Assembly: GCA_016792805.1 (NCBI GenBank)
Contig: JAEUHX010000042.1
Coordinates: 62,001-126,000, forward strand
Source of the DNA: Planctomycetota bacterium
Lineage (GTDB): Bacteria; Planctomycetota; UBA1135; JACQFD01
Direction of reading: 5' to 3'
DNA: 64,000 nucleotides
Under the pieces are notes generated by a model that saw only the letters and a program-made list of their open reading frames with translations, was not told where the DNA came from and did not search any database. Below, piece after piece: positions 7,130 to 11,458 of the stretch. Position numbers and translations under genes: made by a program. Numbering within the stretch: position 1 is the stretch's first letter; each line of letters opens with the position of its first letter.

Positions 7130-9541
7130 CTACTGAAGCAGCGTCCAAGCAGCGGCGCCCGACGTGCCTCCAAAGGGGCCCATCGCGATCGGAACCACGG
7201 CCACGCCGTCGAAGTCGAAGCTCGGAAGTGTGAACTCCGTCAACGCGCCGGCCAGCAGGCTGCCGAGTACCGAACCTACCTGCTGGATCCCCTGTCCGAG
7301 AGCCAACAGATCCACCGAAGGAAGCCCAGAAAGAAGTGTTGCGTTCACCGTCAGCGACTGCACGCCCACGGCGAGCGCGCTCGTCGCCGGATTGAGATTC
7401 GTCGTCAGCTGCCCTTGCACGTCCAGCATCAGTGAGAGAATCGGCACGTCCGTCAGCGATCCCGGAACCGTCGTGCGGAACTCGAAGCGCACTCCGGGGA
7501 ACTCTGCGTGCAGCAGCGCCGGCCCCGACGAGTTTACAGAAACCACGGGGGCGACCGTAGGTGTGAGCTTCACTCGCACAAGCTGCGTCGGCGGCAGCAG
7601 CTCGAATCCGGCGCTCGGCAGGATTTGCGCGAGCTCCTGCGCCTGGAACGGAGTCTCGCCGAACCCGAGCGCATAGGCCGATGCGATCGTGTCGAGGTGC
7701 TGGTTGGCGAGCCCGGAAGAGGCAAGCCGCGACAGGAAGAGATTCAAGGCGTCCACCCGCGCGCCCGTGCCGACGTGGTACGCGGCGCCGCCCGGAGCCG
7801 TCGTCCCGAAGGTCGGAAGCGGAGCGCCAGAACTTACAAAAACCGGTAGCGACGGCCCCGTCGGCGGCAGCAGCGAGGCGAGGTAGCCGTTGGCCGTCGC
7901 CGAGACGCCGGAAGTCGTGTGCGTCACCGACTCGAATCGAAGCTGCAGGGAGTACAGCTTGTTGAGGAGGCCGAATTGTGTATCCGTGAAGTCGATCGCG
8001 AAGCCCGAGCCGAGAACCTCCGACAGCATCGGCTGGATCGCCGAGTTGAGCGCCGAGAGAGCCGCGTCGTAGACCGTACCGGTGAAAGCCTGATCGATGT
8101 CGAAGGGAATCCCCGACACGTCGTAGGAGAAGCCCGAGATCGAAATCTGCGCGGGCGACAGCGACACCGTCAAGGCGCCGTTCACAATCGGAAAAGTGGC
8201 GTTCGTCTTGATCGTCACGAGGTCTGCGCGCAGATACCCCGTCGACGACCATCCGATTCCGAAGAGCGTTCCCCAGAACGACATGGGGATATACAGATTG
8301 GAAATCGTGATTGTGATGCCGATGTTTGACGTTGTCGGCGTGAACGTCACGCCGTAGGGTCCGTGGGACGCACCCGTCGGCTTCGCGTACGCCGTCGCGA
8401 TGAAGATGTCGGCAATCTCCTGCGCGGGCACAGACGAAGTTACAATTTGAGAGAGGTTCAGCGCGTTGAGCTCCCCGAGTACGAGCGTCTCCACCTTGTC
8501 GAGCCCCTGCTGCGTCATCTGGACTCGCACGGATTGCGGCAGCGGCGTGGCCGTGCTCACGGCCGCACCGCGCAGCGCCGACATGCGCCGCGTGGCCACG
8601 GAGCCGTCGGAGGCGAGAATCTGATAGGTGATCGGCCGTGACGTTTGCCCCGGAATCCAGGGGATTCCCACAAAATTAGTGAAACTTCCGAGCGACGAAA
8701 GCACCGTCGGCACGCCGTCGATCGCAAAGGCGGCGATCTCGTCCTTCGGCTGGAGTTGCCCAAAGAGCGGGATCGTTGCGCCACTTAGGATCGCGCCGTC
8801 GAGCGGTGTCAGATAATTGAATGCGAAGGCGTGGATCGTCGTCTCGTCGGAGGAGAGTGGCACGCCATTTTTGTAGAGAGTGACTCGCGCAGTATAGTTG
8901 CCCGCGACGTCCGGAGTGAAATGCGGGAACTGTGTGTTCGTGTTCGCAAGATTCGATGCACTTCCAGCAGGCTTCGCGATCAGCTGCCATGCCAGGATCT
9001 CGCCCGGCGCCATGAGCCCGCCGCTCGCCGCATTGGCGCTTCCGTCAAGGACAACCTGATCTCCCACAAATGCCGAGAGATTGGGGCCCGCCGAAGCGAC
9101 CTTCTGCACCAGCAACGAGGCGCCGTTCGAGAACACAATTCCGTTGGGGTCCGACGCGTCGACCGCAAAAGCCACAAAATGAAAAGTCCGGCCGAGGAGA
9201 GCCGGGTCGGGCGGAACGATCGTCGACACGACGAGCGATCCCGACGGGGGAATCGTGAGTGGGCCTGCGAGAACCGACGTCGCAGCGGTGAATCCGAGCG
9301 GTACGAGCTCCCCGAGGAAGCTGAAGGGGCCCGCGCTCTCATCGAAGAGGATCCCGCCGGGCTTTCCGGCGGGTAGCTTGCCGTTCGCAATCAACCCGGC
9401 TCCGGGCGGCAGCGTGATCGCAGTAGCGCCATTCAGCTCAAGGGTCGCCTGGGGGGCGGCGGCCGAAGCGGATGGGGCCGTGAGAAGCGCGGTGAGGGCA
9501 GCCGCGCAAGCGAGTGCCTGCGAGCGGGGGTCGAGGTGCAT
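7130..9541 (-). CDS. Secreted protein with PKD-like domain and possible BPI/TULIP fold
   Basis: An 803-residue exported protein. A signal peptide covers about residues 1-27 (charged start, hydrophobic core, ASA/AAP cleavage region). Residues about 150-230 read like a PKD domain: LDGSANAAS, LAWQLIAKPAGSASN and DVAGNYTARVTLYKNG. From about residue 330 to the end there are long alternating hydrophobic-polar strands with few charges, arranged as two similar halves, and repeated segments such as ISNLYIPMSFWGTLF and LNLFLSRLASSGL. That pattern recalls BPI-like lipid-binding (TULIP) proteins, but this is inference from pattern and no database match was possible. The divergent region upstream also carries the Hsp20 promoter. 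No Cys lipobox is present, so the protein is probably periplasmic or released. Confidence 0.7.
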   Translation of the reverse strand: MHLDPRSQALACAAALTALLTAPSASAAAPQATLELNGATAITLPPGAGLIANGKLPAGKPGGILFDESAGPFSFLGELVPLGFTAATSVLAGPLTIPPSGSLVVSTIVPPDPALLGRTFHFVAFAVDASDPNGIVFSNGASLLVQKVASAGPNLSAFVGDQVVLDGSANAASGGLMAPGEILAWQLIAKPAGSASNLANTNTQFPHFTPDVAGNYTARVTLYKNGVPLSSDETTIHAFAFNYLTPLDGAILSGATIPLFGQLQPKDEIAAFAIDGVPTVLSSLGSFTNFVGIPWIPGQTSRPITYQILASDGSVATRRMSALRGAAVSTATPLPQSVRVQMTQQGLDKVETLVLGELNALNLSQIVTSSVPAQEIADIFIATAYAKPTGASHGPYGVTFTPTTSNIGITITISNLYIPMSFWGTLFGIGWSSTGYLRADLVTIKTNATFPIVNGALTVSLSPAQISISGFSYDVSGIPFDIDQAFTGTVYDAALSALNSAIQPMLSEVLGSGFAIDFTDTQFGLLNKLYSLQLRFESVTHTTSGVSATANGYLASLLPPTGPSLPVFVSSGAPLPTFGTTAPGGAAYHVGTGARVDALNLFLSRLASSGLANQHLDTIASAYALGFGETPFQAQELAQILPSAGFELLPPTQLVRVKLTPTVAPVVSVNSSGPALLHAEFPGVRFEFRTTVPGSLTDVPILSLMLDVQGQLTTNLNPATSALAVGVQSLTVNATLLSGLPSVDLLALGQGIQQVGSVLGSLLAGALTEFTLPSFDFDGVAVVPIAMGPFGGTSGAAAWTLLQ

Positions 9542-9697
9542 GGATTGCCGCGGCCCGGCGGGGCCGCCTCCGGATGTGTGGCGACGCTACGGCGGGTCCG
9601 CCGGTGCGGCAAGCGCCGAGACGGCAGCAATCTTGTATCCGCCGGTGCCAACACGACAGCTTGAGACCGGGCAGGTCGGGCGAGGGCGGCTCCAAGT

Positions 9698-9710
9698 CTT
9701 GAATTTCAAG
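9698..9710. promoter_or_regulatory. Palindrome CTTGAATTTCAAG upstream of hsp20
   Basis: A perfect 6+1+6 inverted repeat, about 35 bases before the sigma-54 -24 element. CTTGAA is also the -35 word of sigma-32 promoters, but no CCCCAT-type -10 follows at 13-14 bases, so a dimeric regulator site is the simpler reading. Confidence 0.4.
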
Positions 9711-9743
9711 GCACGTACGACGGCAGCCTCGCGTGGCTCACTT

Positions 9744-9758
9744 TGGCACGGGCGTTGC
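9744..9758 (+). promoter_or_regulatory. Sigma-54 (RpoN) promoter for hsp20
   Basis: TGGCACG-GGCG-TTGC matches the RpoN consensus TGGCACG-N4-TTGC at every specified base, with the invariant GG (9745-9746) and GC (9757-9758) exactly ten bases apart. Transcription would start near 9770, leaving an untranslated leader of about 117 bases before the hsp20 ATG. Transcription from it would require an enhancer-binding ATPase encoded elsewhere. Confidence 0.75.
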
Positions 9759-9886
9759 CTCTTGGCCTTCTGTGTGTTTCGAGGACGCCCTAGGGTCTCC
9801 TCGACATGGCGACGGCCGCCACGGTGCCGGAGCTGTGCATTTCCAGATGTTGCTTGTCCCCGATTCTACTCCTCTGGGAGGAAACG

Positions 9887-10351
9887 ATGACTTCCATCAT
9901 TCCGCGTCGAGAGCTCGGCATCTTTGGAGCGCCTGTTCGCGATATCCATCGCGACGTGGAAGGGTTGTTCCGCTCCTTCTTCGATGATTTCGACCGCCTG
10001 CCGGCGCTGGCGCAGTCCACGGTCCCGATGCCCGCGTTCGATGTGACAGAAACGCCCGAGACGTTCGTGATCAAGGCTGAGGTTCCGGGCATGGAGGCCA
10101 AAGATGTGGATATTCACATCGAAGGCGATCTTCTGACGTTCTCCGGAGAAAAGAAGGAGGAAGTCAAGAAAGACAGCGCGAATGTGCACTTCACGGAGCG
10201 TCGCTTCGGGAAGTGGTCGAGGTCCTTCCGCCTGCCGACGTCGGCCGACACGTCGCGTGTCGAAGCGCGCATGGTGAACGGCGTCCTGGACGTCACAATT
10301 CCCAAGCGCGCCGAGTCGAAGCCGCAGGTCATCAAGATCAAGCCGACGTGA
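9887..10351 (+). CDS. Small heat shock protein, Hsp20/alpha-crystallin
   Basis: An ATP-independent holdase chaperone of the cytoplasm that binds unfolding proteins and hands them to DnaK-type refolding machines. The 154-residue length is typical. The alpha-crystallin domain runs from about residue 50 to 142: FDVTETPETFVIKAEVPGM at its start, then the GVL motif at 132-134 and a C-terminal I-x-I element (IKIKP, 149-153) that mediates oligomer assembly. The ATG at 9887 is preceded by GGGAGG six bases upstream, which decides the start over longer in-frame candidates. It is a single gene with a near-perfect sigma-54 promoter and a small hairpin after its stop. Confidence 0.95.
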   Translation: MTSIIPRRELGIFGAPVRDIHRDVEGLFRSFFDDFDRLPALAQSTVPMPAFDVTETPETFVIKAEVPGMEAKDVDIHIEGDLLTFSGEKKEEVKKDSANVHFTERRFGKWSRSFRLPTSADTSRVEARMVNGVLDVTIPKRAESKPQVIKIKPT

Positions 10352-10369
10352 TCGGCGAGTGAGCGCTGA

Positions 10370-10384
10370 GGGAAGCTACTTCCC
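10370..10384. terminator. Short hairpin between convergent hsp20 and TPR genes
   Basis: GGGAAG-CTA-CTTCCC is a perfect six-base-pair stem. Its loop contains the stop codon of the minus-strand TPR gene, and it lies 18 bases after the hsp20 stop. There is no T-run on either side, so it is at best a weak or factor-assisted terminator. Confidence 0.35.
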
Positions 10385-11458
10385 GAGCCTCCGCAAGATC
10401 TCCGCGACGCGGCGGGCGAGGTCTCCCTTGCCCGCCGCCTTCGCTTTCACCTCGATCTGTGACCCGAGTTCCCGAAGCGAGGGATCGCGAGAGAGAGCCG
10501 TCCCGGCCGCAAGGGCTTGCGCCCAGTGGCTCGCGGCGTCTTCGAGCTTGTCGAGATGGGTGAATGCCTCCGCAAGCCGCCGGTGGGCCGACGGCCCCGA
10601 AGGATCGGCCGCGAGCGCTTGAGTGGCAGCCTCCTGCGCCCTCTCCCAGTCGGAGCAGAGGAGCGCGGCGTCGCACCATTCCAACAGAAGCCCTCGGTCG
10701 CGCGAGCCGCGCGCAATCGGCTCCAGCAGCGGGAGGGCGAGCCGGCCAAGCCGGGCATGAAGATACAGTTGCCCAAGCGCACGCGCCGCCTTCACGTCGC
10801 CCGGACTCACGGCGAGCCGCTTGGCGAGTGCCGTTCGTTTTGTGGAGAAATCAAACTTCTCCTTGTAGAGGGCGCGCTGCGCCGCGGCGCCCGCGTCGTC
10901 GCCGACGCGTTGCGCGACGGCCGCGAGCGCATAGTGCGCCGACGCCGCGGAGTCGCTCCAGGGATCGGCCGCGAGCGCTTGGGAAAGCCACAGTTTTGTC
11001 TTGTTGTCGTCTCGGCGCCGATGGGCGAACTGACCCGCAGCGAAGAGGACGTCGGCTGAGGCGGGCGCCACGGCGAGCGCCTCCTGCAGCAGCGCCTGTG
11101 CTTCCTCGACCGAGCCGAGCATCTCCTTCGCTCGGGCGAGCGACACCAGCGTGACGGCGTCCTTCGGCTCCTCTTCCCGCGCCGAGCCCAACGCCTGTGC
11201 GGCCTCTGCGTAGCGGTGCTGCTCGATAAAGATGAGCCCTCGAAGCTGGCGTGCTTTAGTTCGCGTGCGCGAGTCAACAGATCCAGCGAGCAGAAGTTCC
11301 AGCCGCGCCAGCGCGTCGTCGAACCGCTCCATCGCGAAAAGTTGCACTGCCGAGGTGAGCTCCTCGGACGCAGGCTTGCTCTCCGCGCCCGGCTTCGAGG
11401 CCGTTTCCTGCGGCAGAAGCAGCGCTGCCGCCGCGGCGAACCAGGCGAGCGGGATCAC
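10376..11458 (-). CDS. Exported TPR protein
   Basis: A 360-residue protein with a short N-terminal hydrophobic segment (MIPLAWFAAAAALLLPQ), probably a signal peptide or anchor, then helical TPR-like repeats through to the end. Typical repeat fragments are AEAAQALGSAREEEPKDAVT, SADVLFAAGQFAHRRRDDN and GPSAHRRLAEAFTHLDKLED. TPR arrays act as protein-interaction scaffolds; no enzyme motif is visible. Its start overlaps the stop of the RlmI-like gene by four bases, so it is the last gene of a three-gene operon. The function is unknown, and co-transcription with an rRNA methyltransferase does not by itself suggest one. Confidence 0.75.
   Translation of the reverse strand: MIPLAWFAAAAALLLPQETASKPGAESKPASEELTSAVQLFAMERFDDALARLELLLAGSVDSRTRTKARQLRGLIFIEQHRYAEAAQALGSAREEEPKDAVTLVSLARAKEMLGSVEEAQALLQEALAVAPASADVLFAAGQFAHRRRDDNKTKLWLSQALAADPWSDSAASAHYALAAVAQRVGDDAGAAAQRALYKEKFDFSTKRTALAKRLAVSPGDVKAARALGQLYLHARLGRLALPLLEPIARGSRDRGLLLEWCDAALLCSDWERAQEAATQALAADPSGPSAHRRLAEAFTHLDKLEDAASHWAQALAAGTALSRDPSLRELGSQIEVKAKAAGKGDLARRVAEILRRLGK

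Follow-up and report, generated by a model that had tools for sequence, protein, structure and literature searches.

A predicted sigma-54 chaperone regulon in Planctomycetota: a conserved enhancer-like dyad at hsp20, clpB and dnaK and a candidate activator encoded upstream of dnaK

The hsp20 locus and its -24/-12 element

The window (the whole stretch of DNA that was analysed, 64,000 nucleotides) belongs to a planctomycete genome of 5.74 Mb in 89 contigs, which is 91% complete. It carries hsp20, whose product contains the alpha-crystallin domain characteristic of small heat-shock proteins and is the single PF00011 match in this genome assembly. A gap of 345 bases, also described in an earlier note on this DNA, lies between the start of a divergent minus-strand open reading frame (ORF) at 9541 and the hsp20 ATG at 9887. 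Coordinates of the features are given in Table 1. No good sigma-54 site faces the divergent ORF, the best minus-strand score in the gap being 13.5.

Table 1. Features of the hsp20 locus (positions in the window; EBP, enhancer-binding protein)
Feature	Position	Strand	Evidence
hsp20 (small heat-shock protein, 154 aa)	9887..10351	+	Pfam HSP20 PF00011, 1e-22
Sigma-54 (-24/-12) promoter element TGGCACGGGCGTTGCC	9744..9759	+	score 17.2 of 17.7; top site in the 9542-9886 gap
Main predicted enhancer (EBP site) CGGTGCCAACACGACAGCT, core TGCCA-N3-CGACA	9643..9661	+	15.4 bits, full matrix
Second, weaker predicted enhancer site AAGCGCCGAGACGGCAGCA	9611..9629	+	11.5 bits, full matrix; <6, hold-out matrix
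Possible third enhancer site GTCCGCCGGTGCGGCAAGC, weak	9596..9614	+	8.4 bits, full matrix; <6, hold-out matrix
Palindrome CTTGAATTTCAAG, not the conserved enhancer	9698..9710	.	present, rare by chance, unconserved before hsp20 (118 loci)
Presumed transcription start, about 12 bases past the -12 GC	9770	+	standard sigma-54 promoter geometry
Ribosome-binding site GGGAGGAA, precedes the hsp20 ATG	9876..9883	+	sequence
Divergent 803-aa ORF, N-terminus resembling a signal peptide	7130..9541	-	ORF reading

The earlier note had described a complete sigma-54 promoter with GG-N10-GC spacing before hsp20, expected by chance less than 0.1 times in the window. Indeed, TGGCACGGGCGTTGC at 9744-9758 on the plus strand has this spacing and all conserved bases, with exact TGGCAC and TTGC, and the exact string TGGCACN5TTGC occurs once in the window against 0.08 expected from shuffles. 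When one mismatch is allowed there is still 1 site, against 3.78 expected. By a hand-made weighting of the consensus, which is the sigma-54 score used throughout, the element at 9744-9759 is the only site in the whole window, on either strand, to reach at least 16. Genome-wide, the exact string has 8 matches against 10 for a reversed control, and because it is not enriched, the string alone is weak evidence. The case for the promoter is carried by its conservation and context.

Homologs of hsp20 are present in 27 of 41 genomes, this genome counted, and TGGCACGGCCGTTGC lies ahead of the hsp20 of a family mate (59% identical). Among 118 evaluable Planctomycetota loci, a -24/-12 element scoring at least 15 is found upstream of hsp20 in 69 (shuffles 3.6%, reversed sequence 2/118), one of at least 16 in 43 (0.4% and 0/118) and one of at least 17 in 14 (0.05% and 0/118); 49 of the 118 have none of at least 15. 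These loci are what was scored of 120 gathered, two being too short, and L069 was kept despite a stop just past its short match. Those from the wider phylum (30, plus 60 chosen one per genome) were the top ones by HSP20 score among the matches listed. Most of a further 78 evaluable named loci come from other phyla; a score of 16 is reached by 7 of the 78, three in Poribacteria and one each in Victivallaceae, Lentisphaerae, Planctomycetota and a deltaproteobacterial MAG. The trait looks lineage-bound, but of the five named loci there that belong to Planctomycetota/Brocadiaceae (L087, L098, L107, L110, L112) a single one attains this score.

Could the element be a chance match, with hsp20 expressed from a housekeeping or other heat-shock promoter or controlled by an RNA thermometer? 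The lack of genome-wide enrichment would allow it, and the hsp20 start codon could take part in local base pairing, in a possible small hairpin at 9880-9905 (GGAAACGAUG...CAUCAUUCC). This explanation is nevertheless extremely improbable, as the -24/-12 element is conserved ahead of hsp20 and clpB across relatives, the hsp20 leader folds no better than its shuffles (z -0.56), and the thermometer families of Rfam, ROSE included, have no match at E up to 1 in 9500-10400. A match to sR38 inside hsp20 (24.7 bits, against a cut-off of 50) was taken as chance.

The genome was also searched for rpoN and enhancer-binding proteins (EBPs), a check that the earlier note had proposed, and both were found. 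The two rpoN genes, on contigs 89 (C89; L001/L003) and 70 (C70; L002/L004), each encode both Pfam domains; they are divergent from one another, and their RpoN boxes read ARRTVTKYRK and ARRTVAKYRA. PF00158 has 29 matches, 21 of which are strong EBPs (at least 152 bits). Some EBPs lie in very long open frames on contigs 86, 34 and 20 (L018, L023, L025; 1879, 1755 and 1570 aa), which suggests large N-terminal sensor regions.

A palindrome and a conserved dyad upstream of the promoter

About 35 bases upstream of the promoter, the earlier note had placed a 13-base palindrome as a possible activator site. The palindrome is there: CTTGAATTTCAAG is a perfect 13-base dyad, 33 bases upstream of the promoter within the gap, and would seldom arise by chance (0.06 expected with one mismatch or none). 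These properties would suit an activator site or a heat-shock repressor operator. Its distribution argues against both: of the 118 loci, only that of the window has CTTGAANTTCAAG with no more than one mismatch in the 450 bases ahead of hsp20, one more has it at 2 mismatches, and a genome-wide search for further copies, as the note had advised, gave two exact places in total. The palindrome was also not recovered in an unbiased dyad search of 67 promoters (described below). The HspR/HAIR operator is CTTGAGT-N7-ACTCAAG; the palindrome has 3 bases, not about 11, between CTTGA and TCAAG. Either role is thus very improbable for it, and it was discarded as the enhancer. The conserved candidate for an activator site is a different dyad of the type TGYCA-N3-TGRCA, whose best copy in the window, at 9643-9661, falls outside the region that the earlier note had covered.

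This dyad emerged from the search of stretches upstream of -24/-12 sites, in which all 5-base arms with gaps of 0-12 were scored on 69 promoters cut to 67 non-redundant ones. One element dominates, CTGYCA-N3-TGRCAG, often in tandem. Its TGCCA-N3 form is found in 27 of the 67 promoters and its TGTCA-N3 form in 16, where 0.17 would be expected for either; the former has a z of 51, and the highest z in five null runs was 8.4. The matrix was refined to CTG[CT]CA-WWW-TG[AG]CAG, and 12 of the 67 hsp20 promoters have no site of at least 8 bits. For a hold-out, a matrix was built from the 47 loci outside the order of this genome; it finds sites of at least 8 bits in 17 of the 20 order loci (shuffles 2.8%). 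The seed for this matrix had been taken from the dyad search, in which the order loci were included. With a matrix trained without order members, the window's site at 9643-9661 scores 11.9 bits (shuffle P 0.0023). The full matrix finds three sites in the gap (Table 1), one moderate and two weak, and other loci provide cleaner examples than the window.

The arrangement of the dyad is that of EBP enhancers (upstream activating sequences): it is often tandem, lies upstream of the promoter, and is common to candidate co-regulated genes. At least two sites are found in 36 of 86 hsp20 and clpB promoters, against 0.07% in the null, and 24 of 44 tandem spacings fall within 18-23 bp. The sites are most frequent at 80-100 bases ahead of the -24 element, and the centre of the window's main site is 92 bases upstream of it. 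Alternatively, the dyad could be the operator of a repressor, with sigma-54 activated through another site. Palindromic operators are common at heat-shock genes, and a few copies of the dyad are no more than 40 bases away from the -24 element. However, the peak position and the tandem spacing are those usual for EBP enhancers, and many dnaK loci have an EBP gene upstream, which speaks against an operator; we regard this alternative as improbable and keep the reading of the dyad as an enhancer.

Outside Planctomycetota, hsp20 genes with -24/-12 elements and dyads of the TGYCA-N3-TGRCA type were observed at L104, L130 and L139 (Poribacteria) and L096 (KSB1). With the hold-out matrix, the scores of the three Poribacteria loci are 17.1, 17.1 and 11.2. 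A genome-wide search of this genome with a combined enhancer and promoter pattern returned no match; the gap allowed was 80 whereas that at hsp20 is 86, and the clpB site mismatches the last base, so that the empty result is a technical miss and not a negative. One of the exact -24/-12 strings of the genome (G000:C58:168510-168524, L041) precedes an ORF resembling a universal stress protein, and this locus has no enhancer of at least 13.5 bits. As a predicted enhancer of sigma-54 chaperone promoters, CTGYCA-N3-TGRCAG appears to be newly recognised.

Predicted target genes and a candidate activator beside dnaK

The single promoter of the earlier note thus appears to be part of a predicted sigma-54 chaperone regulon. 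In this genome, clpB (Pfam Clp_N and AAA) has a -24/-12 element 55 bases ahead of its ATG (MQLDKLTTRAQQ..., one of the 8 exact strings) and an enhancer that precedes the -24 by 72 bases. Among relatives, 30 loci were collected for clpB, 7 of which were classed as ClpC-like by eye from identity and N-termini. A -24/-12 score of at least 15 is found in 19 of the 23 clpB. An enhancer of at least 12 bits, by the hsp20-trained matrix, precedes 19 of the 23 clpB (0.5% null) and none of the 7 ClpC, and the full enhancer and sigma-54 pair is present at 17/23 and 0/7, respectively. Because the matrix was made from hsp20 promoters only, clpB is an independent test.

For dnaK, 9 of 16 starts reach a -24/-12 score of 15 and 8 of 16 have an enhancer too at a strict cut; the -12 element is often degenerate. 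The dnaK of this genome has two enhancer sites (15.3 and 13.8 bits) and a weak -24/-12-like candidate, TGGCATCGGATTTGAC, 67 bases ahead of the ATG, whose score of 13.0 is exceeded by that of an unrelated string further upstream (14.0). In the corresponding position the family mate's dnaK has TGGCACTCGATTTGTC, together with an enhancer scoring 15.7.

In the case of groEL, none of 30 loci has the pair within about 500 bases. To place groEL outside the regulon would be wrong for many relatives, since a scan of 1500 bases found the pair (sigma-54 at least 14.5, enhancer at least 12) at groESL in 14 of the 30, mostly before a receiver-domain gene ahead of groES-groEL. A small receiver-domain gene in this position was observed, with the pair before it, in L289, L291, L293, L294, L296, L298, L299, L303, L304 and others, and its product could provide feedback on the EBP. 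No pair was found at the three groEL stretches examined in this genome, nor at the one of the family mate, despite a receiver gene there.

When 2.52 Mb of gathered loci were scanned, 95 pairs were obtained: 51 at hsp20, 16 at clpB, 15 linked to groEL, 7 at dnaK and 6 others (one DnaJ-like ORF, one Lon-like ORF and 4 elsewhere). This tally is no measure of enrichment, since the loci overlap, were mostly chosen for hsp20, clpB, groEL or an EBP, and were sorted by eye; dnaK is the class for which loci had not been chosen. The DnaJ/CbpA-like ORF lies in L274 (G026) and the Lon-like ORF in L184 (G229), both named by eye.

A candidate for the activator is encoded on contig 25 of this genome. This EBP combines a receiver (REC) domain, Sigma54_activat with GAFTGA, and HTH_8, and is of the NtrC type. 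EBPs that share its recognition helix, ERTLYRK, were drawn from the best EBP matches in the order, and in 20 of 28 loci their gene precedes dnaK in the same orientation. These 28 loci consist of 24 of 30 EBP loci, with two private EBPs (see below) and four of other types excluded, and 4 further regions; they represent 27 genes, one gene of this genome being present twice, as L328 and as L356. No dnaK was counted in 8 of the loci; these include the duplicate L328, L337 with 131 downstream bases, and L347, whose dnaK has another start codon, and five loci of relatives with at least 1100 bases downstream of the EBP have no dnaK. Neither an ERTLYRK-type EBP nor dnaK was found in L358, L359, L361, L362 and L364-L366, and L367 repeats L352. 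The distance from EBP to dnaK is 3.9 kb in this genome and 167 bases in the family mate.

Of the 20 dnaK genes linked to such an EBP, 19 have an enhancer of at least 12 bits within 400 bases of the ATG, against 0.9% in shuffled 400-base stretches of 7 loci, which are not shuffled promoters. For 20 ERTLYRK-type EBPs of relatives, the best match in the comparison set is the contig-25 EBP (418-557 bits, the next being 315-365). Judged by this synteny, the contig-25 EBP may well bind the enhancer, and it is a strong candidate for the activator of the predicted chaperone regulon. A kinase would phosphorylate it, with heat or another protein-damaging stress as the signal.

A rewired case, known systems and the proposed circuit

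There are more complicated cases in two relatives, which belong to different families, both other than that of this genome. In G002 (L317, 2058-7226) the order of genes is clpB-EBP-hsp20-hsp20, and in G003 (L318, 114-5568) it is EBP-hsp20-hsp20-clpB; the two private EBPs are 49% identical to each other. A search of 151 order genomes for such EBPs, with up to 10 candidates scored in each genome, gave 962 and 899 bits for these two and 333 for the next, and the cluster EBP was on this ground rejected as a general regulator. In both genomes hsp20 and clpB lack the common enhancer, and the dnaK-linked EBP type is retained. In G003, two strong enhancer sites (18.8 and 17.3) precede dnaK; in G002, a strong site (17.9) lies close to where the EBP gene is estimated to start, and none lies upstream of dnaK. 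The two cases fit a natural rewiring in which some genes of the regulon have passed to another activator.

They also bear on the question of which EBP acts in this genome. Another EBP could serve this sigma-54 promoter and enhancer, the dnaK-linked one being there for some other reason: the genome encodes 20 other strong EBPs, and the two relatives indicate that chaperone genes can be served by different EBPs. On the other hand, the contig-25 type lies upstream of dnaK in most of its loci, with the enhancer at nearly all of these dnaK genes, and the relatives with private EBPs have lost the enhancer at hsp20 and clpB while keeping both the dnaK-linked EBP and a strong enhancer site in its locus. 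Another activator is therefore unlikely, although it deserves more weight than the alternatives considered above.

Probably, then, hsp20 is run by its sigma-54 promoter and the NtrC-type EBP of contig 25 acting via CTGYCA-N3-TGRCAG, and clpB and dnaK likewise. At the level of sequence comparison, the predicted promoter, the conserved putative enhancer, the shared targets and the linkage of EBP and dnaK are established; counting against the proposal are the pairing of EBP and enhancer by synteny, the other strong EBPs and the presence of two rpoN genes. The earlier note's suggestion of ATPase-activated RpoN control of hsp20 is strongly supported on comparative grounds, namely by the conserved -24/-12 element, the rpoN genes, the EBPs and the conserved enhancer. 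In the proposed mechanism, RNA polymerase with sigma-54 would wait at 9744-9759 as a closed complex. The response regulator, whose gene lies upstream of dnaK, would bind the dyad at 9643-9661, perhaps helped by the weaker sites at 9611-9629 and 9596-9614, and would loop to the promoter and open it with ATP. The same activator would most likely switch on clpB and dnaK in this genome, so that holdase, disaggregase and Hsp70 would rise together under protein-damaging stress. DnaK, encoded beside its own activator, could close a feedback loop.

Escherichia coli ibpB is a small heat-shock gene with a sigma-54-dependent promoter in addition to sigma-32 control, and is in this respect like hsp20 here. 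Unlike the case of ibpB, the same enhancer-promoter pair is found here at hsp20, clpB, dnaK and the groESL of relatives. With NtrC-family (group I) EBPs, the present system shares the receiver, the AAA+ domain with GAFTGA, the Fis-type HTH and tandem dyads about 100 bases upstream, whereas the EBP is linked to dnaK and predicted to act on chaperone rather than nitrogen genes.

Enrichment of sigma-54 promoters at chaperone genes of Planctomycetota is already a published prediction. The passages of PMC12316311 (PLoS One 2025) at hand predict enrichment at genes for IbpA (COG0071), GroEL/ES, DnaK/J, GrpE and COG0542, and a chaperone sigma-54 regulon for Planctomycetota and Bacteroidota, in the former mostly in Planctomycetia and less in Phycisphaerae. 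Its authors state there that EBP specificity was not available for all studied organisms, and these passages give no enhancer motif, dedicated activator or promoter anatomy for the chaperone genes. Compared with them, the enhancer, the candidate EBP, its dnaK linkage and the rewired case are added here. No description of this enhancer, of the EBP or of its linkage to dnaK was found in the open-access literature, and the consulted passages of PMC4641369 and PMC8762339 contain nothing on an enhancer or activator.

In Rhodopirellula baltica, according to the portions of PMC2754498 at hand, heat induces ClpB, Hsp20, DnaK, GroEL, GrpE and DnaJ, and no change of the rpoN transcript was seen under heat, which is compatible with control through an activator. 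In these portions no master regulator is named, and the authors suggest a response cascade different from that of E. coli. An established master regulator of the planctomycete heat-shock response was likewise not found in the open-access literature.

A broader proposal, for which we see the chances as evenly balanced, is that in much of Planctomycetota, and perhaps in Poribacteria, the core heat-shock response depends not on a heat-shock sigma factor or a titrated repressor but on sigma-54, one dnaK-adjacent response-regulator EBP and a common CTGYCA-N3-TGRCAG enhancer, with hsp20 and clpB of some lineages under a second, private EBP. With a named enhancer, a candidate activator and a defined set of targets, heat-shock regulation in planctomycetes becomes directly testable. 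If true, this would be a bacterial heat-shock circuit in which a response regulator and the ATP-driven opening of promoters gate induction.
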